NCBI RefSeq assembly: GCF_051622035.1
Contig: NC_135356.1
Location: 14,122,079 to 14,186,078, forward strand
Source: Arctopsyche grandis
Taxonomy: Eukaryota > Arthropoda > Insecta > Trichoptera > Hydropsychidae
Reading direction: 5' to 3'
DNA length: 64,000 nt
Of this stretch, positions 25,546 to 58,987 are shown piece after piece. How positions within the stretch are numbered: position 1 is the stretch's first letter; each line of letters starts with the position of its first letter. The notes under the pieces are model-generated. The model made no database searches and was not told the origin of the DNA. It saw only the letters and a program-made list of their open reading frames with translations. Both the position numbers and the translations under genes were made by a program.

Positions 25546-25886
25546 ATATCATTTAGCTAGTTCGCGGCTTGTACTATTATGTAGGTTTTATACATTGTAT
25601 ATGATAATAATTTTCTAACAATTAATAATATTAACTAGTTTGGATTATATTTTTTACTCTACGTCACTTTACGAGTTCGAACTAAATTTTAAGAGGTTTA
25701 AAACAAAATTTAACATTAAACACGCTGACAGTGACAGTTCACGCGCATGCGCAGAAGACTTTTCGCCTGTCGCAGATATAGCACCTACAAATAGTCAATA
25801 ATTCGCAGATATAGTACCTGCAAATAGCCAATAATTTGCAAATATAGTATCTCAAATAGCCACAACCTAAAAAAATAAAACAATAA

Positions 25887-26560
25887 GAATTCCGTTTAGC
25901 GTAATTTAATTTTTGAAACTGCAATTGAAAAATTGAAAAAAGATCAACATCATTTATTATCAAAATCATTTATCTTATGTATATCTAAATTACTAAAATT
26001 TATCAGTCATGTCAAACCCTTCGGTAAATTATACTTACCAAATTGATTAATATTTGAAATTACTCAATAAAATAACACACGAATAAAATAGTTTCTAAAA
26101 TTAAACCAAAAACCCATACAAACCTATAAAGCATCTGTCACAAAATTGGCTCAACATCAAAGTCTTCCCTATTAATTAATTTACATATATTTATATTTTG
26201 TATGTACTAACTTAGAGCTGTTAAGGTTTTGGCGGAATTCGTAAACAGGAAGTAGGATTTTTTTTTTTTTAAATAATTTTTTATTTTATTTTGACATTTT
26301 AAATTATTTTTATCTTCTTGATATTTAATGTGTAATATATGTATGTATATAGTGATTTTTAGTAATAAAAAAAATGAACAAAATCCGAGAACCGGAAGTA
26401 GAACTTTCGTCTTTTGTGCGTTTCCCTACATTTGCGCTCAATTGATATCAAAAATGCTCTCAGCCGGTGTACATACAATGTATGTACGTACGAAAATGGT
26501 CTCATAGCACGTGGACGTGTACATATGTATTTATGTATATACATATGTACGTTTCACTGT
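25887..26560 (-). repeat. ACTTCCGGTT interspersed repeat (unit 1)
   Basis: Same family as 19045-19565, with the same landmarks. Equivalent copies lie at about 40239-40912 and 53945-54618. Related plus-oriented segments begin at 30220 and 34740 in unit 1. No coding capacity. Confidence 0.55.
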
Positions 26561-28096
26561 CGATTTTTTTTTAAACTTCTTATATTTCTTAAATAAAGTC
26601 TTAAGTTGGTGCACATCCGAAGTTTAATGTTCGTGTTGGTATCACTGGTACAAACTTACGTGTGTTTGGGCCAGTGAAAAATTCGCGCCGTAGCGTCTAG
26701 CAGAGCAAATCTTTTTCGTTGTTGGCGGCTGCATTCAAATTTCGCTGAACCTGTGAAGAAATTACCAAGACATTTCGTCTTCCTCAGGTCTGGTTGCCTG
26801 GGAACTTCAGGACTGGGTACCTTCAGGTCGTTTCATTCAGAAATCGGAAGTCCTCATTTTAGGTAATTACGCATTTTCATGATGAACTTTTTTCCAATGT
26901 GCGACTTTTGCAATTTGCGACTATTATCCAATGTGAGGCATCCAGTGATCCATTTGAAATGTATCCAGTGATCCACTGTGACCGAACTGATTAATATTAA
27001 TTGTTTCAACGAATTTTTTGACGCTTGCAAATTTCAAATTTTTTGACAATAATAATAAAAGCAAAGATGGCGACCATGAAAGCGAAAAATTATCAAACAC
27101 GGCGGCTCTCTAAATTCAACCTAGATTAAATATTAGTCTAACATACATATAAACATGAAAATTACATTATAGGGTACATTGAATGTACATATAATGAAAC
27201 TTAATCCAGGATCTATTCAAAGGGCGGACATTGTTTTAATTCTCAAAATTAAAAACACTTTTCACCTGCGGTGTATTTTTACTTTTTTCCTTACAATATA
27301 CAAAAAATAAATAAATCAAAAAGAAAATACACCTACATATAAATTGTACATATTAACTAATGTAATGTTTTTTATATGCACAAAACGTTACAAAAAAAAC
27401 CTTGTAAAAAATAAAAATCAATACTGACCAATTCGAAAAAATTTAAAGGAGAGATATGTAAGTTCAGCGCCTCGGCACTTTATTTAGTACTACACCACTG
27501 TTCCCATAGAAAAAGGCCCAGAAAACACCAGGGAAGTATTTTTATTGCTATGCAATACAATACATACAATATGCCTCACATAAAAACCAACTCATGCAAT
27601 ACAAATAAATGCAAACATTAATTTGAGCACATATAAATGTACTAGAGACATCACACAGTTAAACCAAACCAGATATTTGTCATCTTCGCATCACATACAA
27701 CTTGGATCAACTCGAATATATACATACATACATAGTCGAATATATGTATAATACCCAAAAACAAATACTATTACATTTTCAATAATTTATACTTACATAG
27801 GTTCAACATTCATAATAAATTAAACCTTAGAACATATGTACAACATTCGGAATTAAATTTTCAGATCAATCAATAAACTTATAAAACAAAAAACAGTAGA
27901 CTTTTCATAATGCTTTTTTTAAAGAAATCAATTAATTTTATCAGGTCGACCAATAATCATAGTACTATATTACTCGGGGATGTTGAAAAATCACCAAGGA
28001 AGTAATTAAACTAAATCTTAAACGCTACATATATTTATGTAAATATGTATATATTCAGAAAAATTGTAAACATATAATATATTTTTATCATTTCAG
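26561..28096 (+). promoter_or_regulatory. nanos: Upstream region of nanos copy 1
   Basis: A GC-richer stretch at about 26650-26860 (GTGTTTGGGCCAGTGAAAA, CGCCGTAGCGTCTAG) ends with a possible donor TAG/GTAATT at about 26861. The first coding exon has a splice acceptor (TTTCATTTCAG at 28086-28096) with 24 untranslated bases before the ATG, so at least one noncoding exon must lie upstream, possibly here. No TATA box or initiator is convincing. The same region is repeated at about 40913-42448 and 54619-56154. Confidence 0.35.
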
Positions 28097-28120
28097 ACAA
28101 CGATAGATCAAGAAGTCATA

Positions 28121-30890
28121 ATGAGTGAGAAGCCTCGCCCTTTTAACAGGGCTGGTAAGTTAAATTAATGAATTGCAATCAAAATTAATTCGAAATTTGA
28201 TTTTAAAATTTGCAAGTTCAGAGTCAGAGTCGTAAAAAGTCAACTGACTCCGACTCCTTTGAATTATTTTTTTTAATTGATCGTATTACAGTATGCGGTA
28301 ACTAGTCTCCAATTTTATTTAAGTAAATCCACTAGTAAATTGAAATTTAATAATTTCTTTATGAAAATCGTGAATTTAAATTACATTACAAATAATATCG
28401 TTGAATTGCAAATATTTTTCTCATTTTTCTTATTAAATTGATTTTTTTATGTATACAATTCATACACATACGCTATCAATGTACTTACTTTTTATTTATA
28501 CCTATTTACTAACTTTTTTAATTCATTTAATATTTTATTTCGAAAATCAAGTTCAAGTTGGAGTCGGAGTCGGTAAATTGTGAACTGACTCCAGTCCTGA
28601 CTTAATTGAACGGAAGTATGTAAATAAAACGACCATAAATGTGAGGAGTTGCAGAATTGCTCAGAGATATGGAAAAAAACTGAGACAAGAATAATACATA
28701 CAATGAGAATTTTTATTGCGATTTTTAAAACTACAAATTAGTTTTTCATAAGCAATATAAAAATATTAAAACATATACATAATATAATATGTCCATAGTA
28801 ATAGTAATGCAAAAAGGATTCGTTCATCCATTGCACGATAGCTATGTTTTGTTCACACCAATTATTATTTTTTTGTGCAATGGAAAAGTTAATTTATATA
28901 TTTTCATTTTAATGGACTGGACGACATATTTTTTAACATTTTTATTGTTTTTATATTATACAAAAAATGATAAAGTTGGTCTCGTCAAAATAGTATGGAC
29001 CAGATATTGAAAATATTATATAAATACATACATATCTGCCAATAATTTTGTACAAATGTACATACACACCATATGCATGTGTTTATGTTCGTATTGTATC
29101 AAGAAGATTCCAACAAAAATTTGTTCTTACATCTTTATATTCTTAGTGGGACGACCTCCGTATTCAGCCAACCCGGCTAAGGCTTCATCCAGCAAGCAAG
29201 ACGATGAAAAAAAAAATAAAGTGAGATATTTATATTATAAGAAAATTAATAGCAATCTTAAAATGATCACTGGTTAAATTTCAATAAGTTGATACTATTT
29301 CAAGGCATTTATAACCTCTCATCCATATACATTTTAGGTGATCAAGAGACGTAAAAGTTGTGAATATTGCGTCACAACAGGAAAACCTAAAAGGATTTAC
29401 CTTTCTCATATGATGGAGACAAAGAGAGGCAATGTTATGTGCCGCTTTTTGCGGGCATATAAATGCTCAATTTGCAATGCAACCGACTTAGAAGCGCACA
29501 TGGAGTAAGATATACATATATAGATTATCTTTAAAACTGATACATGTACATATGTATGTACATATAATATCTAAATATACGCATTCTGTAACTGTAAATT
29601 ATAACATTTTGTTTCAGGTCGCATTGTCCTCTTATCAATAAGGCTAAACACCAACCCTTTGTGAAACCGCCACGACACAGAGCAAGTATGTTGAAAAACT
29701 TCATATTAATAGTAGTAGACATTTGTTTAGATATGCATGTGTGTAAATCCAATTGGTTTTTAATTCATTTGTGTTTTAATATGAAATAACTGCTGTTCTA
29801 TTTAAGCGGTTGCATAATTTTAAATTACAGTAAATAGGGGGTTTGTGTCCCATATCATCAGGACCGGCCCGAGGATTTTTAGCACACCGGAAAAAAAACT
29901 AAAATTTGAGCCCCCCCCCATTTTTAATAACCTCTTCTTACTTTTTATTTACACATGCTATGCAATATCTAATATATAATTTCGAAAGAGACTTTGTATG
30001 TATGTATGTATGTATGTACGTAAAGTTTGTTGGCGATCGAAAAACAAATCAAAGTTTCTATTCGACATGGTTGAATTTGAATTATTTTCATGTGAAATTC
30101 GGATGTGACTAACCCATGACTTTATCTATGTATGTGTTTGAGGAATATAAGAAGGTCACAAAACAAAATTCGATAATTAAACATAATAATAAAATACGTT
30201 TACACACACACATACGGTTATGAGCGCAAATGTAGGGAAAATTACACAAGACAAAAATTCTACTTTTGGTTGTCAGATTTTGTTCGAAATTTTTTTAATA
30301 CTTAAAATCACCATCATCGTCATACACATAAGATATCAAGAAAATAAAAATAATTTAAAAGATAAAAATATAATAATGAAATATTGTTTTAAAAAAAAAT
30401 ACTACTTCCGGTTTACAAATGTTGACCAAAACCTTATCAGCTCCAAGTTAGTACACAAAGAATACAAATATTAATGTTCAGCTTTATACGCTCAGTATAA
30501 AGCTGTAAATAGTTAAATCCGGGACATTTATCTTTGCGGGACTGACGAATAGTAATCCTATCTTACGGCAATAGTTATGCTAAAAAGATTCATTAATTTA
30601 TTCCACAATAGTTACATTTTGTCCAAAACAACTTCACGAATCTCTTTGGTGCAATGTAAAAGTAAATTTATAGATTTACACTACATACATATGTACATAT
30701 ATATACATACATACATAAATATGTATATGTATATAAAAATCAATCTATACCATTCAACCGATTGCGATAAAACTTACATGAGATATTGTGTGCATACCTG
30801 CGATGGTTTCTGTTAAAAAAAATCGCTCAAAAACGGGAACGGGAATTGCATGCGTTATTGTGGCATTGCAACGCATGCCGGGTTCAACTA

Positions 30891-30933
<43 letters not shown>

Positions 30934-32857
30934 CATGTCAAAAATGTGCAAACTAAAATTTGAAACAGACTACTTTCAAAATTAACACATATTTATATTT
31001 TGAATAGGTAAAACATCAATATCGGAAGCCGATGGCAGGCAGATGTAAGTACATATTATAGTGATATTTTTATGATAAATACAAAAAGACCAAAATACCT
31101 TTAAGTACCAAACGATTTTCAATTATATTTACAGAAGCTCTCAATCGATGACAGAAAATATAGAAGCGAGCCTTCGAGACCTAGCAATTAGCCCCGTCAC
31201 AGCTTCGGGATCCATCCCAATAACGGAGGAACTTATGGGTATTCCAAGGGACAAGTGCCCTAAATTCATATACATATGTATGTACATTATAGATATGTAC
31301 ATATGTATATACACTAATGGTTTTAGATAGTATATATATTGTATTGTTTCCCTTTATTGGCTATGTTAATACCTACATATATACATACATAAATATATAT
31401 AAAAATCAATCTATACCATTCAACCGATTGCGATAAAACTTACATGAGATATTGTGTGCATACCTGCGATGGTTTCTGTTAAAAAAAATCTCTCAAAAAC
31501 GGGAACGGGAATTGCATGCGTTATTGTGGCATTGCAACGCATGCCGGGTTCAACTAGTACATATATATATATATATATTATATCATGTCAAAAATGTGCA
31601 AACTAAAATTTGAAACAGACTACTTTCAAAATTAACACATATTTATATTTTGAATAGGAAAACCATTGCTACCAAAAATTGATGGCAGGCAGATGTAAGT
31701 ACATATTATAGTGATATTTTTATGATAAATACAAAAAGACCAAAATACCTTTAAGTACCAAACGATTTTCAATTATATTTACAGAAGCTCTCAATCGATG
31801 ACAGAAAATATAGAAGCGAGCCTTCGAGACCTAGCAATTAGCCCCGTCACAGCTTCGGGATCCATCCCAATAACGGAGGAACTTATGGGTATTCCAAGGG
31901 ACAAGTGCCCTAAATTCATATACATATGTATGTACATTATAGATATGTACATATGTATATACACTAATGGTTTTAGATAGTATATATATTGTATTGTTTC
32001 CCTTTATTGGCTATGTTAATACCTACATATATACATACATAAATATATATAAAAATCAATCTATACCATTCAACCGATTGCGATAAAACTTACATGAGAT
32101 ATTGTGTGCATACCTGCGATGGTTTCTGTTAAAAAAAATCTCTCAAAAACGGGAACGGGAATTGCATGCGTTATTGTGGCATTGCAACGCATGCCGGGTT
32201 CAACTAGTACATATATATATATATATATTATATCATGTCAAAAATGTGCAAACTAAAATTTGAAACAGACTACTTTCAAAATTAACACATATTTATATTT
32301 TGAATAGGAAAACCATTGCTACCAAAAATTGATGGCAGGCAGATGTAAGTACATATTATAGTGATATTTTTATGATAAATACAAAAAGACCAAAATACCT
32401 TTAAGTACCAAACGATTTTCAATTATATTTACAGAAGCTCTCAATCGATGACAGAAAATATAGAAGCGAGCCTTCGAGACCTAGCAATTAGCCCCGTCAC
32501 AGCTTCGGGATCCATCCCAATAACGGAGGAACTTATGGGTATTCCAAGGGACAAGTGCCCTAAATTCATATACATATGTATGTACATTATAGATATGTAC
32601 ATATGTATATACACTAATGGTTTTAGATAGTATATATATTGTATTGTTTCCCTTTATTGGCTATGTTAATACCTACATATATACATACATAAATATATAT
32701 AAAAATCAATCTATACCATTCAACCGATTGCGATAAAACTTACATGAGATATTGTGTGCATACCTGCGATGGTTTCTGTTAAAAAAAATCTCTCAAAAAC
32801 GGGAACGGGAATTGCATGCGTTATTGTGGCATTGCAACGCATGCCGGGTTCAACTAG

Positions 32858-32889
<32 letters not shown>

Positions 32890-33576
32890 CATGTCAAAAA
32901 TGTGCAAACTAAAATTTGAAACAGACTACTTTCAAAATTAACACATATTTATATTTTGAATAGGAAAACCATTGCTACCAAAAATTGATGGCAGGCAGAT
33001 GTAAGTACATATTATAGTGATATTTTTATGATAAATACAAAAAGACCAAAATACCTTTAAGTACCAAACGATTTTCAATTATATTTACAGAAGCTCTCAA
33101 TCGATGACAGAAAATATAGAAGCGAGCCTTCGAGACCTAGTAATTAGCCCCGTCATTGCTTCGGGATCCACCCCAATAACGGATGAACTTATGGGTATTC
33201 CAAGTGACAAGTGCCCTTTGTGCGGAGCGCCTTACGACGACGCCCATGATGTGTAAGATATATGCAGATTATCTCTAAACCTCATATACATAAGTATTTT
33301 GTAATTTTAAATTATCACATATTGTTTCAGAGTGGACTGCCCACTAAATGAAATTAGCCCCGTCATTGCTTCGGGATCCACCCCAATAACGGATGAACTT
33401 ATGGGTATTCCAAGTGACAAGTGCCCTTTGTGCGGAGCGCCTTACGACAACGCCCATGATGTGTAAGATATATGCAGATTATCTCTAAGCCTCATATACA
33501 TATGTACATAAGTATTTTGTAATTTTAAATTATCACATATTGTTTCAGAGTGGACTGCCCACTAAATGAAAGTTAA
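28121..33576 (+). CDS. nanos: Nanos-family RNA-binding protein, copy 1 (8 coding exons, 233 aa)
   Basis: Translational repressor family acting with Pumilio in the germline. Coding exons: 28121-28154, 29147-29220, 29338-29504, 29618-29685, 31008-31044, 33091-33252, 33331-33462, 33549-33576. All introns are GT-AG, phases agree and the total is 702 bases. Exon 3 starts VIKRRKSCEYCVTTGKPKR. The eight ligands fit Nanos exactly: C-x2-C-x12-H-x10-C, then C-x2-C-x7-H-x4-C (CSICNATDLEA, H, then ESHCPL in exon 4). Unusual features: the finger is near the N-terminus with no recognisable NOT1-interacting motif before it, and the C-terminus holds two further second-type knuckles, CPLCGAPYDDAHDVVDC and CPLCGAPYDNAHDVVDC, each preceded by ITDELMGIPSDK. 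Alternative exons at 31658, 31785, 32435 and neighbours could give a 191-aa form ending in exon 31135-31330. An AATAAA lies at 34214. The exon model is inferred without transcript data. Confidence 0.82.
28195..28605 (+). repeat. GAGTC-ended repeat in first coding intron of nanos (copy 1)
   Basis: Clusters AGTCAGAGTCG and CTGACTCCGACTCC at the left and GGAGTCGGAGTCGG with ACTGACTCCAGTCC at the right bound an AT-rich body that is homologous, in reverse, to 8040-8345. Present at the same place in copies 2 (about 42547-42957) and 3 (about 56253-56663). No coding capacity. Confidence 0.5.
29686..31007 (+). repeat. Repeat-rich intron 4 of nanos copy 1
   Basis: Contains oligo-C and (TATG)n runs near 29910-30015, a plus-oriented segment of the ACTTCCGGTT family (about 30217-30480), (ACAT)n, and the first Helitron-like end. 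Short open frames here are not credible genes. Same layout in copies 2 and 3. Confidence 0.45.
30800..33252 (+). repeat. nanos: ~650-bp alternative-exon array in nanos copy 1 (4 units)
   Basis: Four direct repeats with the exon-6 ATG at 31148, 31798, 32448 and 33104. Each unit has a Helitron-like end (hairpin GCATGCGTT/AACGCATGC, CGGGTTCAACTAG, T), an (AT)n run, a 37-bp exon 5 with AG and GT borders, and an exon 6. Exon 5 is variant A in unit 1 (31008-31044) and variant B in the others (from 31658). In units 1-3 exon 6 is truncated just after DKCP and runs into ACAT-rich repeat with an in-frame stop (for example 31330). Only the last unit keeps the full knuckle and donor. Confidence 0.85.
30848..30891 (+). 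mobile_element. Helitron-like 3 prime end in the nanos array
   Basis: Stem GCATGCGTT (30848-30856) and AACGCATGC (30870-30878) with a 13-base loop, then CGGGTTCAA and CTAG (30888-30891) before T. The same end recurs once per ~650-bp unit in all three nanos copies and, inverted, at 9735-9830. No Rep/helicase coding sequence is present. The 5 prime terminus was not located. Confidence 0.5.
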
Positions 33577-34354
33577 ACAAATTCGAAATCGAGGACAATC
33601 CGAATGTTATATGTATTAGTAGTATATTGTTTTTCTGTAAATTACAAATTTATGGCTGGCGATGATTTTAATATGGCATTCTTTTCATTTCAATGCGCGC
33701 ATTTTGATTTTTGCATTTTTATGTGGCATAAGTTAATTTTTCTTCGTTTCGAGAAATATTTTACAAAACATTAGATATGTTTTACGTTTAATTTATTTTT
33801 GAAAATTGGAATTTCCCCATTTTTACTTACCTCCTTTGAGTAAAAAGTAATTCATGTTTGCGCTAAAAATTAAATGAAATACTTTTAAATATACCTCTAT
33901 ATATGTAAATTGTAAACAAATGATTTTCAACTGTGATGCTTCTGTTTTGGTTTTCAGTTTTTGTTGGATTTATCTGTTTTGGTTCAAGTTTTTTAAATTT
34001 ATTTCATATGTATATATGAATTTTTTTAATTATTCTTAAGAAATGTTATATATGTTATACTATTGTTGAAATCGCGCGGCCAATTTAAGTGGTAATAATA
34101 TATGCGCGAATATAGTTTTAATTTTGCTTTCAAATTATATTATGTTACAATTGAAAAAGAAATTTGAGATGATACAGTAAATGTATGTGTGTAGTTGGCC
34201 CAATTGGATTGAGAATAAATATTGTATGGAAACACTTTTTTTTAATTTATCTGCATATAATCCTTTTTTCATGTTTTTATTTTATGTATGTGGTTCAAAC
34301 TTACTATGTATAAATGTCGACACAGGGTTTTTATAATAAATATTTGTATATGTA
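33577..34354 (+). other. nanos: 3 prime region of nanos copy 1
   Basis: AT-rich, with AATAAA at 34214-34219 and AATAAA-like sequence near 34335. Probably the 3 prime untranslated region and flank. No Pumilio-site pair of the hunchback type was recognised. Equivalent regions: 47278-48055 and 60993-61770. Confidence 0.4.
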
Positions 34355-36079
34355 CAGTATACTCTCGATTATCCACGTGCGGATTATCTGTGCTTGAAAT
34401 AAATTAAATTTTTATTAAAATCAACAATAACACTTGCTTCGTCGAAAGAAAAGTCCTCAGTCGGACACAAATCATCTAAAGAGTGTACGAGTATAACAAT
34501 TAAGTGTTGTGGAAATGCTCAGGAACTCATAAAATTAAATTTTTAGTAATAAAAAATCTTTCTGTTGATTATTATAACCGAAAAAGACCCACGGATAGAC
34601 AGGGTCTTTGAAGATTGGGTTCAAGACTAAAGGAGTTTTAAAAAAGTAAAATTCCCATGACTTTATCTATGTATTCGAGGAATATAAGGTTACAAAGCAA
34701 AATTCGATAATTAAACACACATATCGATCATGAGAGCATTTTCGATACAAATTGAGCTTAAATGTAGGGAAACTTATACAAGACAAAAGTTCTACTTCCG
34801 GTTGTCAGATTTTGTTCAAAATTTATTTATTACTTAAAATCACTATAAATATTATACACATTAAATATCTAGAAAATAAAAATACTTTAAAAGGTCAAAA
34901 TAAAATAATGAAATATTGTTTCCAAATTCTGACCAACTCTAAGTTAGTACATAAAAAATACAAATATTAATTTTCACCTTGATATGTTCAGGGGTGTGGA
35001 AGTAATCGTGGTAACAATATTTTATACTTTTCTAAGAGGAAAAAATCCAACTTCCGGTTTATTAAATTTAGTCTATTTTTATTTATTTTCATCACATTGA
35101 TACAAAGCGCACACATGTTTAAGGGGTCGAAAAAAATAGTAGAAGAAAAATCGAAAAACTTTCGGTTGACGAATGCCTACCAAATTTTATACACATAACT
35201 TGGTTAATTAAGCTTAAACTTCTAGATATAAAATTTCAGTTCAGTAAACCAAAAGGTCTCAGAAAAACAACTATTTCCTAAACTACTACTTCCAGTTTAG
35301 GAAAAAATATTGGAGTATAAAATTTATAATTTCCATTATGTACATGTAAAAAAATTTCAGTTTGATTTGATTAGCGATTTGGAAGATAATTAAATTCAAA
35401 AACTTAATAAAAAACAGGACACCTAATAAGGGAAGGACCATTTTCGGTCAACTTAAAAATTCGAAGAAAATTTAGGTCGTATCGATAAGAAATTCAGTTC
35501 GATAGGATGGACGGTGTTCAAAAAATCCACTGATATTTTCTAGATCATAAAAACGTGATCAGTGATCGATTGCGAGTTCGAATTAGTCAAAATCTCGAGT
35601 TGAAATTTTTGCATGATCACAAAACTTCATCTATTGTTACTACGTAACATACATAGATAAAGTAAAAAGGTTATAACAGTATTGTTAATAGATTATGTTC
35701 CTTTTCATTCAAATGAAACTATAATACAATAATTATGATGGCTAAAATTTTACTGCCTAATGTTACAAGTCAAGATGTCGTATCATCAATGAAACGGCTT
35801 TACAGTGCTGATGTTCTCACAGCTCTTGCTGAGGAGATAACGATTTGATCAATTTCTGTGAAATATGCAAATTAATGGAACATTTAAAATGCTTTGAAAA
35901 TGTTGATCGGGAAAACATCGAGAAGTGGTTTGAACGCAATTCAAATGATGCGGGTTCTCAATGCACGAGTGATGCAGATATCGTTTATATTGTCGATCAA
36001 ACAATAAAAACGATATCAAAAATTGATAGTTCCTAAACTCTACTCTCCAGCATTAGCCCGGATAATCGAGAGAACACTG
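34355..36079 (+). mobile_element. Tigger/pogo element, unit 1, with nested repeat
   Basis: Inverted ends CAGTATACTCTCGATTATCC and GGATAATCGAGAGAACACTG, flanked by the TA target duplication on both sides (34353-34354, 36080-36081), as in pogo/Tigger elements. Interrupted by ACTTCCGGTT-family repeats at about 34740-35640 and by the TTCATCTATTGTTACTACG repeat. Confidence 0.8.
35735..36036 (+). pseudogene. Tigger/pogo transposase C-terminal remnant, unit 1
   Basis: Reads LLPNVTSQDVVSSMKRLY then SADVLTALAEE, matching the Tigger transposase stretch LPPNVTS..DQGVI-S-K--Y----L--L. After a stop at 35846 a second frame reads LMEHLKCFENVDRENIEKWF. The catalytic DDD domain upstream is missing, and a short deletion removes the QPMDQ segment. 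Confidence 0.6.
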
Positions 36080-36081
36080 TA

Positions 36082-37406
36082 TATATACATTGGCAATGGA
36101 AAACCTATATAGCATATGGAAAACTATATAAATAGAAGATAATAAAAATAAAAACAGGAGATAATAATTACAATTAAAATAATTTTTTATATTTTTTCCT
36201 TCTTTGGTGTGCTGCCAGAATTTTTGAAACTGATTCAGTGAATTATTTTCGCAGCGAATTTGACAAAAAAGAGATCAATCAATTCAATAAAAAAATGTAA
36301 CTTTTAATACAAAAATAACAATTCAATTTTTAATAGCCACAAAAGGATTGGGCATAGAACTATGTATATATAAAATACTTCAATCTATTAATTTTGTAAA
36401 AAGTATACACCCAATTCTGTTTTTACACAGTAGACTTTTGTACATATGGAAAAATTGTCGATTAGTTCATAGCTTAAAAAGCATAAAATCACAAAAAATA
36501 GTTGATACTTTTTTCTTTATGGACAAATATGTATATCAAAATCATAAAAGAGTAAAATCAGAATTGAGTGTACTTATTTCATAGACGCACATATTAGTAG
36601 CGCAAGATAAAAACTGAGTTTGAATCAGTCAAAATCTCGAGTTCGAATTTTCGCAAGATCGCACAACTTCATCTATTGTTACTACGTACATAGATAGAGT
36701 AATTTGTAAGTTGGTAAATAAGATTTACCGACAATTGAAGTTTTACTGTAATGGTTGTGTTACATATATTCAAATATTTCATGCAATGAAATTATAATAA
36801 ATTATTAAAAAAGTAGCAACAGATTGGAACAAACCATGTCCAAAATTTGGATAGAAAATTATTCAATATTTTATAAAGTAGCATTACAACATACTTATAT
36901 ATATATATATATATAGGAAGTCCGCTGGGTAGTAGGGAGGATTGCAGGAGAGAGAGACAAGTAAAGACGATCTCAATTCAATCTTATGTTTATTTAGAAC
37001 AATCGGTAATCGATGCGCGTACGCAACCGGCGCGTCAAGGCGCGACGCCTACTACTACTACTGCTACCGCACACGGTTCAGGGGTACCAACCTTAACATT
37101 AATACATACGTGTACCAACTGTTCGGCATGAGCCACATCATTATACATAATTGTAATCATTTTTATATTAATATCCTACATATATATATACATATGTATA
37201 ATACATACATACGTATATGGCGAACCAAAAAATGCACTTGCAACAAATATGATACAAACATACATACATATATGCTAGTAAAAGGATAAAAAATTTTGGA
37301 TAAAAGTTTTATGTACATCTTATGCGCGAAATGACATAATATCAGTCATATAATCAGTCGCTCAGTTAATAATTTAAAATACAATAAAATTTCATTTAAT
37401 AAAAAT

Positions 37407-37480
<74 letters not shown>

Positions 37481-37717
37481 AAATCGATACAGCTAATTCA
37501 ATTCACAACAATAATAGTTCAAGTAGAGCAACACAATGTTTTCAAACAATAATACAATCAACAAATTACATATAATTGCAACTTTGGTCTACCATAAAAA
37601 AAAACAACAATCGAAACATTTTTTCTTAACCAAATATACAGACATTCAAAATTACTCAACATTTCATTACAAATAGAAAGCTTTACTTTCCGGTGGAACT
37701 AAAAAGTATGCACGTAT
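36082..37717. other. Nanos-DNAJC11 interval, unit 1
   Basis: Contains the TTCATCTATTGTTACTACG repeat (about 36665-36760), a GC-richer insert at about 36917-37140 with (CTA)n and, on the minus strand, an LTR-like TCTAAATAAACATAAG end, and a (TA)n run of about 70 bp (37409-37478; unit 2: 51108-51184). The two long overlapping frames in the insert are not recognisable proteins. Confidence 0.4.
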
Positions 37718-38701
37718 TTATGACGGTATATTCAAAGATTCTTCATCTGAGATAGTACACGTATATATTTCATCAATGTAATGGTATTTTATCGACAAGT
37801 GTTTGTCTTCACCGAGACACGTGTCATAGAAGCCGGGTAATTGAGCCTGAAATGATATAAAGTTGAGCATTAAAAAAAAAACCTCCAATAAGCAGCTACT
37901 AATAGAGATTACGATTATAAACCTTAGACGAAATTTGCAATACGAGCTTGGAATTCTTCACCAAACATTGCACGGGAACAGTAACATCTATCACGTCATC
38001 AGGTAAACTATCGTTTTCGCCATCGTCCTCTTTGTCCACGTTGTGTTGTGTAACACCTGGAAAAACCCAAATTATGTACCAGAACTTGGCTCGGCGTATT
38101 TTAAGTTTGAAAAAAAAAAACACATTCGCAAATATCATTTGTAAAAAATCGCTTTAACATCGCATACAATTATATATCAGATCGCTGACGCAAGTGCATG
38201 TGTAATAAAAATAGCAGGCGAATTTGACGAATACTTACAATAGATTTTTTTAGTTGTTTGTAATATATATTTGTATTTTTTCATACCTGAAGGGAGTTTT
38301 CCATAGAGCGCTTTAATAATTATGAGTCCTTTATTTTTAGTTTCTTCATTGTGCACACGATTGTACATTTCGTGCATAAGTTTTGTAGCCCATATAGCCT
38401 CGCGTCTCATCTCTTCCATTCTAAGTTAAATCACATAAAGTTAAATCGAATACAAAAAAACAATACATCAAATCGAAATGATTTTGTGTGATGGCTTTAT
38501 TGTATTTACTTGGCTTTGTTATTTTCTCGATTTTTCCGTATCTCTCTGTTTTCCTTCTCTCGATTTATTGGATCTATGATGAACTTTTTCACAGCGAGCC
38601 ACGAAACTAAAGGTACGACAGTAGCGTAAAATACTGGCGCCAGTAACACTTCGTCGCACAAATGAATGGGAAATATGAAAGTCTGAAAGCCGCGCGTCAG
38701 C
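37718..38701 (-). pseudogene. DNAJC11: DNAJC11 homologue, last four exons only, unit 1
   Basis: DNAJC11 is a J-domain protein of the mitochondrial outer membrane linked to MICOS and cristae organisation. Minus-strand exons: 38510-38701, 38287-38420, 37923-38056 and 37718-37846 (stop TAA at 37718-37720), about 196 codons, all GT-AG with matching phases. Family features: FIFPIHLCDEVLLAPVFYAT with a hydrophobic segment (VVPLVSWLAV), then the basic coil KKFIIDPINREKENREIRK, GLIIIKALYGKLPS, DVIDVTVPVQCLVKNSKLVL and the C-terminal AQLPGFYDTCLGEDKHLSIK. These cover the C-terminal DUF3395 region. The J domain and middle exons are absent: upstream on the minus strand comes a MITE and then the next tandem unit. 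The frame is intact, so it is a truncated duplicate rather than a decayed one. Confidence 0.8.
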
Positions 38702-38754
38702 CTGAAAGAAAACAATAAAATTATTATTAAATTATAAAAACCATAAAAAAGGCT

Positions 38755-40215
38755 GTGGCTATTTGCAGGTATACTATATTGTGGGAATCTCGTCACATTC
38801 ATCAAAACAGTTACTGCGACGCAGAATACATTCCCAAAACCAGTCGAAGCACACCTGCAGCCATTATATTAAACTCAAGCGGAACGGTGCCAAATCCTTC
38901 GAGAATGTTCCACCCCTCACACTCGAGCGGAACGAAACCAGTCGAAGCACACCTGCAGCCATTATATTAAACTCAAGCGGAACGGTGCCAAATCCTTCGA
39001 GAATGTTCCACCCCTCACACTCGAGCGGAACAAAACCAGTCGAAGCACACCTGCAGCCATTATATTAAACTCAAGCGGAACGCCCCTACCAGTCGAGCGG
39101 AACCAAAACGGTCGAAACACGCCGCCGCCATTAAACTACATCGAGCGGAACGGCGCCAATCATTCCAGAAAATTCTACCCCTCGACAAAAGAACATTCCT
39201 CGCTTACGCATCAACAACCACCACCATGGGTCAGGCGATACCAGAAACACTATAAAAGGAGGTACAACCCAAACAACACCAGTCGACATCCAGCTCCTGA
39301 CCAGCCACCACTTCACTACGCGGACTTGGAAGATCAACCAGCCGAACGAGCCAGCAACACACTGCCGTATCCCGAGACCTTCCGAACATAGCCGAACAAC
39401 GAACCAGCAACACACTGCCGTATCCAGCGACTTGCTGAACATAGCCGAATGCCGAGCCAGCGACACTCTACCGTATCCAGAGACTAGCCGAACATAGCCG
39501 AATGCCGAGCCAGCGACACTCTACCACATGCAGAGACCTCTGAACGACATACTTTTGCCAACAATTAATCATAATTGTGTATACGTGTTACTACCAAATA
39601 AATACCATATCCAACATATAGCTGTATTTAATACCGAACACAGACGAACCTGTCTATAACACATGGCGGACTGGTGGTGAAGAAGACCTTCACAACTAGA
39701 TAAGTCCCCATAACATCTTCGAATTATTGGCTATTTGCAGGTACTATATCTGCGACAGGCGCAAAGCCTTCTGCGCATGCGCGTGAACTTGCGTAATCCA
39801 ATTATAATTTCTTACATTTAATGTATGCTAGACTTGTTTAATCAATCGTTCATTATACACGAGGCAAATAAATTTCGCACGTTATTATAATAGATTTATA
39901 TCATTTAGCTAGTTCGCGGCTTGTACTATTATGTGGGTTTTATACATTGTATATGATAATAATTTTCTAACAATTAATAATATTAATTAGTTTGGATTAT
40001 ATTTTTTACTCTACGTCACTTTACGAGTTCGAACTAAATTTTAAGAGGTTTAAAACAAAATTTAACATTAAACACGCTGACAGTGACAGTTCACGCGCAT
40101 GCGCAGAAGACTTTTCGCCTGTCGCAGATATAGCACCTACAAATAGTCAATAATTCGCAGATATAGTACCTGCAAATAGCCAATAATTTGCAAATATAGT
40201 ATCTCAAATAGCCAC
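38755..40215. mobile_element. MITE 2 at the unit 1/unit 2 junction (interrupted by an LTR)
   Basis: Starts GTGGCTATTTGCAGGTAT (38755), is interrupted after ACTATAT by the LTR piece at 38780-39716, resumes at CTTCGAATTATTGGC and ends CAAATAGCCAC (40215). Terminal repeats GTGGCTATTTG/CAAATAGCCAC are inverted. It lies in what should be an intron of DNAJC11. MITE 3 (52461-53921) is the same at the unit 2/3 junction. Confidence 0.7.
38780..39716 (+). mobile_element. LTR with leader fragment, unit 1
   Basis: Begins TGTGGGAATCTCG, has a TATA box (TATAAAAGG, 39251), a polyadenylation signal (AATAAA, 39597-39602) and ends CTATAACACA at about 39663, followed by TGGCGGACTGGTGG, the usual position and TGG start of a primer binding site. 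The ~53-bp leader then stops. Direct repeats occur inside: a ~98-bp unit (CCAGTCGAAGCACACCTGCAG at about 38839, 38938, 39036) and a ~60-bp unit (CATAGCCGAA..GCCAGC..ACACT) at about 39360-39530. Superfamily not assigned. Confidence 0.6.
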
Positions 40216-42472
40216 AACCTAAAAAAATAAAACAATAAGAATTCCGTTTAGCGTAATTTAATTTTTGAAACTGCAATTGAAAAATTGAAAAAAGATCAAC
40301 ATCATTTATTATCAAAATCATTTATCTTATGTATATCTAAATTACTAAAATTTATCAGTCATGTCAAACCCTTCGGTAAATTATACTTACCAAATTGATT
40401 AATATTTGAAATTACTCAATAAAATAACACACGAATAAAATAGTTTCTAAAATTAAACCAAAAACCCATACAAACCTATAAAGCATCTGTCACAAAATTG
40501 GCTCAACATCAAAGTCTTCCCTATTAATTAATTTACATATATTTATATTTTGTATGTACTAACTTAGAGCTGTTAAGGTTTTGGCGGAATTCGTAAACAG
40601 GAAGTAGGATTTTTTTTTTTTTAAATAATTTTTTATTTTATTTTGACATTTTAAATTATTTTTATCTTCTTGATATTTAATGTGTAATATATGTATGTAT
40701 ATAGTGATTTTTAGTAATAAAAAAAATGAACAAAATCCGAGAACCGGAAGTAGAACTTTCGTCTTTTGTGCGTTTCCCTACATTTGCGCTCAATTGATAT
40801 CAAAAATGCTCTCAGCCGGTGTACATACAATGTATGTACGTACGAAAATGGTCTCATAGCACGTGGACGTGTACATATGTATTTATGTATATACATATGT
40901 ACGTTTCACTGTCGATTTTTTTTTAAACTTCTTATATTTCTTAAATAAAGTCTTAAGTTGGTGCACATCCGAAGTTTAATGTTCGTGTTGGTATCACTGG
41001 TACAAACTTACGTGTGTTTGGGCCAGTGAAAAATTCGCGCCGTAGCGTCTAGCAGAGCAAATCTTTTTCGTTGTTGGCGGCTGCATTCAAATTTCGCTGA
41101 ACCTGTGAAGAAATTACCAAGACATTTCGTCTTCCTCAGGTCTGGTTGCCTGGGAACTTCAGGACTGGGTACCTTCAGGTCGTTTCATTCAGAAATCGGA
41201 AGTCCTCATTTTAGGTAATTACGCATTTTCATGATGAACTTTTTTCCAATGTGCGACTTTTGCAATTTGCGACTATTATCCAATGTGAGGCATCCAGTGA
41301 TCCATTTGAAATGTATCCAGTGATCCACTGTGACCGAACTGATTAATATTAATTGTTTCAACGAATTTTTTGACGCTTGCAAATTTCAAATTTTTTGACA
41401 ATAATAATAAAAGCAAAGATGGCGACCATGAAAGCGAAAAATTATCAAACACGGCGGCTCTCTAAATTCAACCTAGATTAAATATTAGTCTAACATACAT
41501 ATAAACATGAAAATTACATTATAGGGTACATTGAATGTACATATAATGAAACTTAATCCAGGATCTATTCAAAGGGCGGACATTGTTTTAATTCTCAAAA
41601 TTAAAAACACTTTTCACCTGCGGTGTATTTTTACTTTTTTCCTTACAATATACAAAAAATAAATAAATCAAAAAGAAAATACACCTACATATAAATTGTA
41701 CATATTAACTAATGTAATGTTTTTTATATGCACAAAACGTTACAAAAAAAACCTTGTAAAAAATAAAAATCAATACTGACCAATTCGAAAAAATTTAAAG
41801 GAGAGATATGTAAGTTCAGCGCCTCGGCACTTTATTTAGTACTACACCACTGTTCCCATAGAAAAAGGCCCAGAAAACACCAGGGAAGTATTTTTATTGC
41901 TATGCAATACAATACATACAATATGCCTCACATAAAAACCAACTCATGCAATACAAATAAATGCAAACATTAATTTGAGCACATATAAATGTACTAGAGA
42001 CATCACACAGTTAAACCAAACCAGATATTTGTCATCTTCGCATCACATACAACTTGGATCAACTCGAATATATACATACATACATAGTCGAATATATGTA
42101 TAATACCCAAAAACAAATACTATTACATTTTCAATAATTTATACTTACATAGGTTCAACATTCATAATAAATTAAACCTTAGAACATATGTACAACATTC
42201 GGAATTAAATTTTCAGATCAATCAATAAACTTATAAAACAAAAAACAGTAGACTTTTCATAATGCTTTTTTTAAAGAAATCAATTAATTTTATCAGGTCG
42301 ACCAATAATCATAGTACTATATTACTCGGGGATGTTGAAAAATCACCAAGGAAGTAATTAAACTAAATCTTAAACGCTACATATATTTATGTAAATATGT
42401 ATATATTCAGAAAAATTGTAAACATATAATATATTTTTATCATTTCAGACAACGATAGATCAAGAAGTCATA

Positions 42473-45243
42473 ATGAGTGAGAAGCCTCGCCCTTTTAACA
42501 GGGCTGGTAAGTTAAATTAATGAATTGCAATCAAAATTAATTCGAAATTTGATTTTAAAATTTGCAAGTTCAGAGTCAGAGTCGTAAAAAGTCAACTGAC
42601 TCCGACTCCTTTGAATTATTTTTTTTAATTGATCGTATTACAGTATGCGGTAACTAGTCTCCAATTTTATTTAAGTAAATCCACTAGTAAATTGAAATTT
42701 AATAATTTCTTTATGAAAATCGTGAATTTAAATTACATTACAAATAATATCGTTGAATTGCAAATATTTTTCTCATTTTTCTTATTAAATTGATTTTTTT
42801 ATGTATACAATTCATACACATACGCTATCAATGTACTTACTTTTTATTTATACCTATTTACTAACTTTTTTAATTCATTTAATATTTTATTTCGAAAATC
42901 AAGTTCAAGTTGGAGTCGGAGTCGGTAAATTGTGAACTGACTCCAGTCCTGACTTAATTGAACGGAAGTATGTAAATAAAACGACCATAAATGTGAGGAG
43001 TTGCAGAATTGCTCAGAGATATGGAAAAAAACTGAGACAAGAATAATACATACAATGAGAATTTTTATTGCGATTTTTAAAACTACAAATTAGTTTTTCA
43101 TAAGCAATATAAAAATATTAAAACATATACATAATATAATATGTCCATAGTAATAGTAATGCAAAAAGGATTCGTTCATCCATTGCACGATAGCTATGTT
43201 TTGTTCACACCAATTATTATTTTTTTGTGCAATGGAAAAGTTAATTTATATATTTTCATTTTAATGGACTGGACGACATATTTTTTAACATTTTTATTGT
43301 TTTTATATTATACAAAAAATGATAAAGTTGGTCTCGTCAAAATAGTATGGACCAGATATTGAAAATATTATATAAATACATACATATCTGCCAATAATTT
43401 TGTACAAATGTACATACACACCATATGCATGTGTTTATGTTCGTATTGTATCAAGAAGATTCCAACAAAAATTTGTTCTTACATCTTTATATTCTTAGTG
43501 GGACGACCTCCGTATTCAGCCAACCCGGCTAAGGCTTCATCCAGCAAGCAAGACGATGAAAAAAAAAATAAAGTGAGATATTTATATTATAAGAAAATTA
43601 ATAGCAATCTTAAAATGATCACTGGTTAAATTTCAATAAGTTGATACTATTTCAAGGCATTTATAACCTCTCATCCATATACATTTTAGGTGATCAAGAG
43701 ACGTAAAAGTTGTGAATATTGCGTCACAACAGGAAAACCTAAAAGGATTTACCTTTCTCATATGACGGAGACAAAGAGAGGCAATGTTATGTGCCGCTTT
43801 TTGCGGGCATATAAATGCTCAATTTGCAATGCAACCGACTTAGAAGCGCACATGGAGTAAGATATACATATATAGATTATCTTTAAAACTGATACATGTA
43901 CATATGTATGTACATATAATATCTAAATATACGCATTCTGTAACTGTAAATTATAACATTTTGTTTCAGGTCGCATTGTCCTCTTATCAATAAGGCTAAA
44001 CACCAACCCTTTGTGAAACCGCCACGACACAGAGCAAGTATGTTGAAAAACTTCATATTAATAGTAGTAGACATTTGTTTAGATATGCATGTGTGTAAAT
44101 CCAATTGGTTTTTAATTCATTTGTGTTTTAATATGAAATAACTGCTGTTCTATTTAAGCGGTTGCATAATTTTAAATTACAGTAAATAGGGGGTTTGTGT
44201 CCCATATCATCAGGACCGGCCCGAGGATTTTTAGCACACCGGAAAAAAAACTAAAATTTGAGCCCCCCCCCCATTTTTAATAACCTCTTCTTACTTTTTA
44301 TTTCCACATGCTATGCAATATCTAATATATAATTTCGAAAGAGACTTTGTATGTATGTATGTATGTATGTACGTAAAGTTTGTTGGCGATCGAAAAACAA
44401 ATCAAAGTTTCTATTCGACATGGTTGAATTTGAATTATTTTCATGTGAAATTCGGATGTGACTAACCCATGACTTTATCTATGTATGTGTTTGAGGAATA
44501 TAAGAAGGTCACAAAACAAAATTCGATAATTAAACATAATAATAAAATACGTTTACACACACACATACGGTTATGAGCGCAAATGTAGGGAAAATTACAC
44601 AAGACAAAAATTCTACTTTTGGTTGTCAGATTTTGTTCGAAATTTTTTTAATACTTAAAATCACCATCATCGTCATACACATAAGATATCAAGAAAATAA
44701 AAATAATTTAAAAGATAAAAATATAATAATGAAATATTGTTTTAAAAAAAAATACTACTTCCGGTTTACAAATGTTGACCAAAACCTTATCAGCTCCAAG
44801 TTAGTACACAAAGAATACAAATATTAATGTTCAGCTTTATACGCTCAGTATAAAGCTGTAAATAGTTAAATCCGGGACATTTATCTTTGCGGGACTGACG
44901 AATAGTAATCCTATCTTACGGCAATAGTTATGCTAAAAAGATTCATTAATTTATTCCACAATAGTTACATTTTGTCCAAAACAACTTCACGAATCTCTTT
45001 GGTGCAATGTAAAAGTAAATTTATAGATTTACACTACATACATATGTACATATATATACATACATACATAAATATGTATATGTATATAAAAATCAATCTA
45101 TACCATTCAACCGATTGCGATAAAACTTACATGAGATATTGTGTGCATACCTGCGATGGTTTCTGTTAAAAAAAATCGCTCAAAAACGGGAACGGGAATT
45201 GCATGCGTTATTGTGGCATTGCAACGCATGCCGGGTTCAACTA

Positions 45244-45290
<47 letters not shown>

Positions 45291-47277
45291 CATGTCAAAA
45301 ATGTGCAAACTAAAATTTGAAACAGACTACTTTCAAAATTAACACATATTTATATTTTGAATAGGTAAAACATCAATATCGGAAGCCGATGGCAGGCAGA
45401 TGTAAGTACATATTATAGTGATATTTTTATGATAAATACAAAAAGACCAAAATACCTTTAAGTACCAAACGATTTTCAATTATATTTACAGAAGCTCTCA
45501 ATCGATGACAGAAAATATAGAAGCGAGCCTTCGAGACCTAGCAATTAGCCCCGTCACAGCTTCGGGATCCATCCCAATAACGGAGGAACTTATGGGTATT
45601 CCAAGGGACAAGTGCCCTAAATTCATATACATATGTATGTACATTATAGATATGTACATATGTATATACACTAATGGTTTTAGATAGTATATATATTGTA
45701 TTGTTTCCCTTTATTGGCTATGTTAATACCTACATATATACATACATAAATATATATAAAAATCAATCTATACCATTCAACCGATTGCGATAAAACTTAC
45801 ATGAGATATTGTGTGCATACCTGCGATGGTTTCTGTTAAAAAAAATCTCTCAAAAACGGGAACGGGAATTGCATGCGTTATTGTGGCATTGCAACGCATG
45901 CCGGGTTCAACTAGTACATATATATATATATATATTATATCATGTCAAAAATGTGCAAACTAAAATTTGAAACAGACTACTTTCAAAATTAACACATATT
46001 TATATTTTGAATAGGAAAACCATTGCTACCAAAAATTGATGGCAGGCAGATGTAAGTACATATTATAGTGATATTTTTATGATAAATACAAAAAGACCAA
46101 AATACCTTTAAGTACCAAACGATTTTCAATTATATTTACAGAAGCTCTCAATCGATGACAGAAAATATAGAAGCGAGCCTTCGAGACCTAGCAATTAGCC
46201 CCGTCACAGCTTCGGGATCCATCCCAATAACGGAGGAACTTATGGGTATTCCAAGGGACAAGTGCCCTAAATTCATATACATATGTATGTACATTATAGA
46301 TATGTACATATGTATATACACTAATGGTTTTAGATAGTATATATATTGTATTGTTTCCCTTTATTGGCTATGTTAATACCTACATATATACATACATAAA
46401 TATATATAAAAATCAATCTATACCATTCAACCGATTGCGATAAAACTTACATGAGATATTGTGTGCATACCTGCGATGGTTTCTGTTAAAAAAAATCTCT
46501 CAAAAACGGGAACGGGAATTGCATGCGTTATTGTGGCATTGCAACGCATGCCGGGTTCAACTAGTACATATATATATATATATATTATATCATGTCAAAA
46601 ATGTGCAAACTAAAATTTGAAACAGACTACTTTCAAAATTAACACATATTTATATTTTGAATAGGAAAACCATTGCTACCAAAAATTGATGGCAGGCAGA
46701 TGTAAGTACATATTATAGTGATATTTTTATGATAAATACAAAAAGACCAAAATACCTTTAAGTACCAAACGATTTTCAATTATATTTACAGAAGCTCTCA
46801 ATCGATGACAGAAAATATAGAAGCGAGCCTTCGAGACCTAGTAATTAGCCCCGTCATTGCTTCGGGATCCACCCCAATAACGGATGAACTTATGGGTATT
46901 CCAAGTGACAAGTGCCCTTTGTGCGGAGCGCCTTACGACGACGCCCATGATGTGTAAGATATATGCAGATTATCTCTAAACCTCATATACATAAGTATTT
47001 TGTAATTTTAAATTATCACATATTGTTTCAGAGTGGACTGCCCACTAAATGAAATTAGCCCCGTCATTGCTTCGGGATCCACCCCAATAACGGATGAACT
47101 TATGGGTATTCCAAGTGACAAGTGCCCTTTGTGCGGAGCGCCTTACGACAACGCCCATGATGTGTAAGATATATGCAGATTATCTCTAAGCCTCATATAC
47201 ATATGTACATAAGTATTTTGTAATTTTAAATTATCACATATTGTTTCAGAGTGGACTGCCCACTAAATGAAAGTTAA
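42473..47277 (+). CDS. nanos: Nanos-family protein, copy 2 (233 aa)
   Basis: Same gene in the second tandem unit. Coding exons: 42473-42506, 43499-43572, 43690-43856, 43970-44037, 45365-45401, 46792-46953, 47032-47163, 47250-47277. All zinc ligands, splice borders and phases are kept. One replacement is visible in exon 3: ATG to ACG at 43765-43767 changes the second Met of LSHMMETK to Thr. It lies in the ten-residue spacer between the His and the fourth ligand Cys, so zinc binding should survive. The alternative-exon array is one unit shorter than in copy 1 (terminal-type exons at 45492 and 46142). The reading frame is intact, so there is no sign of pseudogene decay. Confidence 0.8.
45150..46953 (+). 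repeat. nanos: ~650-bp alternative-exon array in nanos copy 2 (3 units)
   Basis: Units with exon-6 ATG at 45505, 46155 and 46805. Exon 5 variants in order: A, B, B. Otherwise as in copy 1, with one internal unit fewer. The first (AT)n run is longer than in copy 1. Confidence 0.85.
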
Positions 47278-48055
47278 ACAAATTCGAAATCGAGGACAAT
47301 CCGAATGTTATATGTATTAGTAGTATATTGTTTTTCTGTAAATTACAAATTTATGGCTGGCGATGATTTTAATATGGCATTCTTTTCATTTCAATGCGCG
47401 CATTTTGATTTTTGCATTTTTATGTGGCATAAGTTAATTTTTCTTCGTTTCGAGAAATATTTTACAAAACATTAGATATGTTTTACGTTTAATTTATTTT
47501 TGAAAATTGGAATTTCCCCATTTTTACTTACCTCCTTTGAGTAAAAAGTAATTCATGTTTGCGCTAAAAATTAAATGAAATACTTTTAAATATACCTCTA
47601 TATATGTAAATTGTAAACAAATGATTTTCAACTGTGATGCTTCTGTTTTGGTTTTCAGTTTTTGTTGGATTTATCTGTTTTGGTTCAAGTTTTTTAAATT
47701 TATTTCATATGTATATATGAATTTTTTTAATTATTCTTAAGAAATGTTATATATGTTATACTATTGTTGAAATCGCGCGGCCAATTTAAGTGGTAATAAT
47801 ATATGCGCGAATATAGTTTTAATTTTGCTTTCAAATTATATTATGTTACAATTGAAAAAGAAATTTGAGATGATACAGTAAATGTATGTGTGTAGTTGGC
47901 CCAATTGGATTGAGAATAAATATTGTATGGAAACACTTTTTTTTAATTTATCTGCATATAATCCTTTTTTCATGTTTTTATTTTATGTATGTGGTTCAAA
48001 CTTACTATGTATAAATGTCGACACAGGGTTTTTATAATAAATATTTGTATATGTA

Positions 48056-49780
48056 CAGTATACTCTCGATTATCCACGTGCGGATTATCTGTGCTTGAAA
48101 TAAATTAAATTTTTATTAAAATCAACAATAACACTTGCTTCGTCGAAAGAAAAGTCCTCAGTCGGACACAAATCATCTAAAGAGTGTACGAGTATAACAA
48201 TTAAGTGTTGTGGAAATGCTCAGGAACTCATAAAATTAAATTTTTAGTAATAAAAAATCTTTCTGTTGATTATTATAACCGAAAAAGACCCACGGATAGA
48301 CAGGGTCTTTGAAGATTGGGTTCAAGACTAAAGGAGTTTTAAAAAAGTAAAATTCCCATGACTTTATCTATGTATTCGAGGAATATAAGGTTACAAAGCA
48401 AAATTCGATAATTAAACACACATATCGATCATGAGAGCATTTTCGATACAAATTGAGCTTAAATGTAGGGAAACTTATACAAGACAAAAGTTCTACTTCC
48501 GGTTGTCAGATTTTGTTCAAAATTTATTTATTACTTAAAATCACTATAAATATTATACACATTAAATATCTAGAAAATAAAAATACTTTAAAAGGTCAAA
48601 ATAAAATAATGAAATATTGTTTCCAAATTCTGACCAACTCTAAGTTAGTACATAAAAAATACAAATATTAATTTTCACCTTGATATGTTCAGGGGTGTGG
48701 AAGTAATCGTGGTAACAATATTTTATACTTTTCTAAGAGGAAAAAATCCAACTTCCGGTTTATTAAATTTAGTCTATTTTTATTTATTTTCATCACATTG
48801 ATACAAAGCGCACACATGTTTAAGGGGTCGAAAAAAATAGTAGAAGAAAAATCGAAAAACTTTCGGTTGACGAATGCCTACCAAATTTTATACACATAAC
48901 TTGGTTAATTAAGCTTAAACTTCTAGATATAAAATTTCAGTTCAGTAAACCAAAAGGTCTCAGAAAAACAACTATTTCCTAAACTACTACTTCCAGTTTA
49001 GGAAAAAATATTGGAGTATAAAATTTATAATTTCCATTATGTACATGTAAAAAAATTTCAGTTTGATTTGATTAGCGATTTGGAAGATAGTTAAATTCAA
49101 AAACTTAATAAAAAACAGGACACCTAATAAGGGAAGGACCATTTTCGGTCAACTTAAAAATTCGAAGAAAATTTAGGTCGTATCGATAAGAAATTCAGTT
49201 CGATAGGATGGACGGTGTTCAAAAAATCCACTGATATTTTCTAGATCATAAAAACGTGATCAGTGATCGATTGCGAGTTCGAATTAGTCAAAATCTCGAG
49301 TTGAAATTTTTGCATGATCACAAAACTTCATCTATTGTTACTACGTAACATACATAGATAAAGTAAAAAGGTTATAACAGTATTGTTAATAGATTATGTT
49401 CCTTTTCATTCAAATGAAACTATAATACAATAATTATGATGGCTAAAATTTTACTGCCTAATGTTACAAGTCAAGATGTCGTATCATCAATGAAACGGCT
49501 TTACAGTGCTGATGTTCTCACAGCTCTTGCTGAGGAGATAACGATTTGATCAATTTCTGTGAAATATGCAAATTAATGGAACATTTAAAATGCTTTGAAA
49601 ATGTTGATCGGGAAAACATCGAGAAGTGGTTTGAACGCAATTCAAATGATGCGGGTTCTCAATGCACGAGTGATGCAGATATCGTTTATATTGTCGATCA
49701 AACAATAAAAACGATATCAAAAATTGATAGTTCCTAAACTCTACTCTCCAGCATTAGCCCGGATAATCGAGAGAACACTG
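48056..49780 (+). mobile_element. Tigger/pogo element, unit 2
   Basis: Second tandem copy of the element at 34355-36079, with the same TA-flanked ends, nested repeats and broken transposase (about 49436-49737). Confidence 0.8.

Positions 49781-51105: not shown

Positions 51106-51187
<82 letters not shown>

Positions 51188-58948: not shown

Positions 58949-58987
<39 letters not shown>

Follow-up and report, generated by a model that had tools for sequence, protein, structure and literature searches.

A predicted gene on contig C2 of this genome encodes a complete Nanos zinc finger and, in the same frame behind it, two further knuckles of the type of the second Nanos knuckle (ZF2). Judged by its sequence, the gene is a Nanos-finger paralogue of variant layout and not a standard Nanos. 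The explanation that best accounts for the evidence, to which we give a probability of roughly 0.6, is that it is a protein-coding Nanos paralogue in which the extra knuckles retune function, within a strongly amplified family. The window, by which we mean the whole stretch of 64,000 nucleotides that was analysed, is C2:14122079-14186078 (plus strand) in a genome of 475.7 Mb on 189 contigs. Loci are named below by contig label (C1, C2, C3, C9, C12, C76, C162) and fetched loci by L-number (L018, L046 and so on); all comparisons were made within this one genome, and the relatives described are paralogous loci only. Contigs of about 31-43 Mb (C1, C2, C3, C9, C12) suggest approximately 13 chromosomes, and a 25-mer of the TTAGG repeat has 52,289 overlapping exact matches in the genome, an abundance that argues against Diptera. 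The window has a G+C content of 32.9%, and its transposons and gene structure appear eukaryotic and insect-like.

The gene model contains eight exons (Table 1), which are predicted to be joined in one spliced mRNA. In the first gene copy of the window, the open frame spans 233 amino acids and closes with TAA at 33576. Any of four copies of exon 5 can be placed in the model with the frame kept open over 233 codons, and a model without exon 5 has a broken frame. GT..AG ends were found in all six introns inspected whole, the acceptor of intron 4 reading TTGAATAG, and exons (39-53% G+C) contrast sharply with introns (22-29%). The finger occupies residues 44-96, in the N-terminal half of the protein, and is preceded by 43 residues. 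It is full, with the spacing C-x2-C-x12-H-x10-C-x7-C-x2-C-x7-H-x4-C, and exons 3-4 alone match the zf-nanos profile (Pfam PF05741) at 59.5 bits (E 3.7e-16), above the Pfam cut-off of 27. Matches in the PDB were to 3alr (5.9e-15), which we take to be a zebrafish-type Nanos, and to 5kl1/5kl8 (2e-7), presumably Drosophila-type Nanos. The signal AATAAA occurs behind the last exon from 34214 on and also within intron 4, at 30188 and 30343, which would allow a short form that ends before exon 5. Dispersed repeats, 86% alike in one comparison and 92% in another, surround the gene (30221-30394 with 34753-34926; 19136-19565 with 26124-26554). Elsewhere in the window lie the remains of a non-LTR-type retrotransposon at 22261-24600 on the plus strand (endonuclease part PF14529, E 1.3e-13) and a PH-domain exon at 3328-3576 on the minus strand (PF00169, E 3.7e-6).

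Table 1. Features of the Nanos-finger gene and its repeats, in window coordinates.
Feature	Position	Strand	Evidence or remark
First tandem unit, 14,352 bp, whole gene	25546..39897	+	repeat comparison
Exon 1, predicted (ATG)	28121..28154	+	in all five gene copies; too short for a search elsewhere
Exon 2, predicted	29147..29220	+	genome search: matches confined to the five gene copies
Exon 3, Nanos finger (first knuckle, larger part of second)	29338..29504	+	zf-nanos E 3.7e-16 with exon 4
Intron 3, phase 2, within second knuckle	29505..29617	+	intron comparison
Exon 4, end of second knuckle and linker	29618..29685	+	profile match, gene model
Three units (666, 650, 650 bp) of exon 5, intron 5 and knuckle-less exon 6	30703..32668	+	repeat comparison, gene model
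Exon 5, four alternatives	31008-31044 / 31658-31694 / 32308-32344 / 32964-33000	+	gene model
Exon 5 copy 1, variant 5a (11/37 bases differ from 5b)	31008..31044	+	gene model, alignment
Exon 5 copy 4, variant 5b	32964..33000	+	gene model, alignment
Intron 5, identical in 15/15 units of the five gene copies and in L046	33001..33090	+	intron search
Exon 6 with first extra knuckle, CPLCGAPYDDAHDV up to the intron	33091..33252	+	gene model
210-bp repeat, copy 1	33142..33351	+	copy 2 from 33352; 98% over 155 nt
Intron 6, resembles intron 3 (67/78 bases)	33253..33330	+	intron comparison
Exon 7, completing the first extra knuckle, then a linker and the beginning of the second extra knuckle, CPLCGAPYDNAHDV up to the intron	33331..33462	+	gene model
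Intron 7, resembles intron 3 (72/86 bases)	33463..33548	+	intron comparison
Exon 8, rest of second extra knuckle, then stop	33549..33576	+	gene model
Second tandem unit, 13,706 bp, one 650-bp sub-repeat fewer	39898..53603	+	repeat comparison
Tail exons 6-8 in second tandem unit	46792..47277	+	gene model
Third tandem unit, cut off at 63796, whole gene inside	53604..63796	+	repeat comparison
Tail exons 6-8 in third tandem unit	60507..60992	+	gene model

The initial annotation of this DNA had proposed two extra C-x2-C-x7-H-x4-C knuckles at 33091-33576, and both were recovered, in frame behind a full Nanos finger at 29338-29685. The two knuckles read CPLCGAPYDDAHDVVDC and CPLCGAPYDNAHDVVDC and are split by phase-2 introns; about 72 residues separate them from the finger, and a linker of 27 residues separates one from the other. 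As had been described, each intron falls after the histidine plus one codon, the place that it takes in the finger (CSICNATDLEAHM before the intron, ESHC after it). The whole 233-residue protein matches zf-nanos in three stretches (74.1 bits, E 1e-20, cut-off 27), and the predicted 1+3 layout, a first knuckle (ZF1) followed by three of ZF2 type, is what the spliced model contains. The tail alone scores 26.3 bits (E 8.6e-6), slightly below the curated threshold of 27, and an equal score is reached there by a prokaryotic RING model (26.3 bits, E 7.2e-6, cut-off 29.1); because this tie leaves the tail alone unassigned by the profiles, its family membership rests on the intron as well. The likeness of the knuckle introns, also claimed at the outset, held up well: intron 3 is identical to intron 6 at 67 of 78 aligned bases (score 37.4) and to intron 7 at 72 of 86, and not one of 2000 shuffles in which the splice ends were kept reached the score of either. 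Introns 1, 2, 4 and 5, compared over the first and last 60 bases of each, scored 6.7-11.3 against this 37.4. The extra knuckles thus share with ZF2 both the site and the sequence of the intron, as homologues of ZF2 should. A chance motif, also considered, was ruled out by the profile and intron tests together.

The source of the extra knuckles was investigated through the same introns. In a survey that covered only copies with an intron at the knuckle site, such an intron recurs in the fetched finger copies of C2, C3 and C162, whereas in the C9 30-Mb cluster the fingers examined (L023, L024, L032) read straight through the knuckle. Of the 29 distinct knuckle-intron pairs, once other tail copies are set aside, the finger intron of the C3 paralogue came closest to intron 6 (64/78 bases, score 37.7), followed by the gene's own intron 3 (67/78, 37.4). 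The earlier proposal that a segment of exon 3, intron and exon 4 was copied downstream is therefore sustained in that a ZF2 segment was copied with its intron and the next exon, and the C3 copy is as close a candidate for its source as the gene's own finger; the tail knuckle would be a copied ZF2 segment from this Nanos branch, taken from the gene itself or from a sister. The proposed later duplication with a 210-bp period was found as predicted (Table 1). At L046 (C2:14098695, minus strand), a tail whose likeness to the window begins at 29773, inside intron 4, there is one knuckle (CPLCGAPYDDGHDVVDC), and neither the 210-bp repeat nor a truncated unit was present in the 3.2 kb read. Because L046 has one knuckle and no 210-bp repeat, a single tail knuckle is likely to be the ancestral state.

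The sequence shows a ZF2 segment (exon, phase-2 intron, exon) that was copied into the tail once, at an earlier time, and was then duplicated in a recent event with the 210-bp period, so that ZF1 and ZF2 are followed by two ZF2-type knuckles. The predicted mRNA would be made in the germline or early embryo, and the predicted protein would bind RNA, probably with Pumilio, and repress translation. According to passages of eLife 17096, Nos clamps Pumilio and RNA and touches bases that lie upstream of the Pumilio site, and repression in the fly is severely limited when the C-terminal region of Nos is lost. The two extra knuckles could add contacts to RNA or protein, resulting in a wider or retuned choice of targets.

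The last exons belong to a repeat that extends both within the gene and beyond it. Three earlier copies of exon 6 (31135, 31785, 32435) end short of the knuckle (KCPKFIYICMYIIDM...), and the five gene copies carry 3, 2, 2, 1 and 2 such knuckle-less units, ten in total. These exon 6 copies may be skipped or may serve as alternative ends, and isoforms could then differ in knuckle number; the tracts behind them hold only AATATA/TATAAA and no AATAAA, which argues against their use as alternative ends. A protein search returned 63 matches, including 45 knuckle-less units at C9:4052203-4076723 (4.052-4.077 Mb) with a spacing of 553 bp. With intron 5 as the query, 65 candidates gave 40 scored matches, of which 15 fall in the five genes, one in L046 and 24 on C9 at the 553-bp spacing. 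Adjacent units of the C9 array are identical (0/758 bases differ in the 1.3 kb read) and have no GTAAG donor at exon 5. The array is followed by one unit with a knuckle (L051), in which TAA lies within the knuckle, so the C2 genes and the C9 array share a plan of knuckle-less units and then a knuckle unit. L052 (C9:4147689) is a tail with an intact knuckle, and L053 and L054 lose the frame after the histidine. For several tail-only relatives (C2:14.10, C9:4.08, C9:4.15 and C12:0.78/0.80 Mb) there was no finger match within 50 kb, and the tail may therefore be a separate or dead unit. The defects of L051, L053 and L054, the missing donor of the array units and a weak exon 6 acceptor in L052 likewise weigh against the protein-coding reading.

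From these observations one could argue that exons 5-8 are a Nanos-derived tandem repeat that is no longer in the gene and has spread in the manner of a satellite, the knuckles being unspliced leftovers. The 45 knuckle-less C9 units, the ten in the five genes, the tails on C2, C9 and C12 with no finger nearby, and AATAAA in intron 4 are all in keeping with this. We nevertheless consider it rather unlikely, as the frame, the splice phases and the ligands are intact in all five gene copies and in the tails of L046 and L052. Both of these tails keep the four knuckle ligands, L052 being 63% identical over the matched stretch, with a weak acceptor at exon 6 (TTTAAAG). The gaps between the window and L052 in the DNA of exon 6 (21, 6, 9, 12 and 15 bases) are all multiples of three and preserve the frame.

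The whole gene has been duplicated: the window contains three tandem units, and two further copies lie inverted at distances of about 105 and 130 kb from the third. Likeness among the tandem units is 99.4-99.8%; apart from the unit counts and a TA repeat, they differ at a handful of bases over more than 10 kb. The 14-kb unit also carries a fragment resembling the C-terminus of DnaJ protein C11 (PF11875, E 1.3e-10), seen on the minus strand at 38177-38425 and 51883-52131. All five gene copies keep the 210-bp duplication and the open frame. A single Met/Thr change in copy 2 is the only difference among their coding sequences, in which no stop or frameshift was found.

Comparisons among units and loci showed exons to be more divergent than introns. 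In copy 1, the first and last units, otherwise nearly the same, differ in 11/37 bases of exon 5, in 6/127 of exon 6 and in 0/170 of the introns (Fisher p 3.6e-6). The window differs from L046 at 14/227 exon and 1/248 intron bases (p 2.7e-4), from L052 at 56/224 and 16/215 (p 5.9e-7), and from L051 at 49/217 and 11/234 (p 2.1e-8); the test takes bases as independent, which neighbouring exon 5 changes may not be, and the intron comparisons cover stretches of about 60-100 bases per intron. Simple positive selection as the cause of this pattern was weakened by the window-L052 comparison (dN 0.26-0.30, dS 0.85-1.05, dN/dS about 0.25-0.36), in which dS of about 1.0 stands against intron differences of 4-10%. 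The dN/dS ratio itself counts towards the protein-coding reading. Two types of exon 5, ISEAD/ISETD-like and PKID/SKIN-like, were recognised by eye in both the C2 and C9 families, and our guess is that homogenised introns, together with exon variants exchanged between loci, would fit better. Close copies give no clear sign of purifying selection in their sequences, with 10 nonsynonymous and 4 synonymous differences between window variant 5b and L046, 8 and 1 between 5a and L046, and 8 and 3 between 5b and 5a.

This preponderance of nonsynonymous changes would suit a second alternative, in which a dying gene was recently duplicated into the five copies, with a finger that may still work and a tail that drifts; copies so alike have also given selection little time to act. 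We regard it as improbable, given five coding sequences free of stops and frameshifts. In addition, a stop lies within only four of the 81 zf-nanos finger matches across the genome, leaving 77 free of one, and two of those four are the fingers of locus L040, whose exons are open up to the intron.

Genome-wide, zf-nanos gave at least 81 matches at E <= 0.001, counts of such large families being lower bounds. Five are of the window kind, 61 lie at C2:30.6-34.5 Mb, 12 at C9:30.15-30.29 Mb, one on C3 and two on the small contig C162. On this sequence evidence, the gene is one member of a much amplified Nanos family. Many copies in the large C2 and C9 clusters are in opposite orientations with equal scores, which points to heavy recent duplication, and haplotype copies may be among them. 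The best match, at C9:30148182, resembles what we take to be canonical Nanos. As a control, the PUF repeats of the partner Pumilio were searched and gave nine matches in two places (C9 and C76), and thus the genome is not simply redundant. At L040 (C2:34544157-34544616), two complete Nanos fingers are joined in one frame after one splice, with the intron in the same place. The idea that two-finger genes are common in the C2 cluster was rejected: of 11 rows with closely paired fingers (9 fetched loci, with some overlap), only L040 reads through, L018 and L036 (minus strand) have their fingers in frame with one stop between them, and in the other eight a stop follows the first finger and the two fingers are in different frames. 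That the tandem copies are an assembly artefact, as near-identical copies, equal scores in some of the family and the two C162 matches might suggest, is very improbable, since unit counts differ between copies, two copies are inverted at a distance, the third unit ends on the right at a breakpoint of its own (63796), the Pumilio repeats are not multiplied, and the knuckle duplication is independent of copy number.

A broader reading of the same data is that Nanos is here a fast-evolving family of unstable copy number engaged in genetic conflict, with knuckle number altered by tandem duplication, variable exon 5/6 cassettes and homogenised introns, in which the knuckle-less arrays of C2 and C9 would be banks of alternative last exons or sources of small RNAs that regulate Nanos. 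We think this unlikely, and would put it forward only speculatively. Stellate/Su(Ste) is an amplified system that offers a model for small-RNA regulation of Nanos copies.

Four nanos paralogues are described for a butterfly in passages of PMC4669120, and passages of PMC9329388 contain nothing on copy number. In open-licence literature, as represented by titles and the beginnings of abstracts, neither extra Nanos knuckles nor a family of such size appeared among the matches listed. Rfam models gave nothing above their gathering scores in the window. Many Nanos paralogues, a two-finger copy and a three-ZF2 copy in one genome offer natural variants for relating knuckle number and linker to RNA choice, and raise the question of why a germline regulator has been amplified when Pumilio, its partner, has remained at a low copy number.

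Nanos is generally portrayed as a germline repressor that has one two-knuckle finger and few gene copies. To our knowledge, described Nanos proteins carry this finger in the carboxy-terminal region with no further knuckle, and Pfam membership rests on the finger. Like the knuckles of HIV nucleocapsid, to which Nos ZF2 is strikingly similar in structure according to a passage of eLife 17096, those described here are compact CCHC knuckles; their C-x2-C-x7-H-x4-C spacing and intron place are, however, those of Nanos ZF2, and we claim no retroviral relation. The two-finger copy at L040 resembles the window gene in exceeding two knuckles in one frame, but repeats the whole finger, whereas the window gene repeats the second knuckle only. 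With the Nanos of Drosophila and zebrafish the gene shares a full CCHC-CCHC finger of canonical spacing; it differs from them in placing that finger in the N-terminal half and adding two ZF2-type knuckles in the tail, and in belonging to a genome that carries dozens of paralogous fingers.
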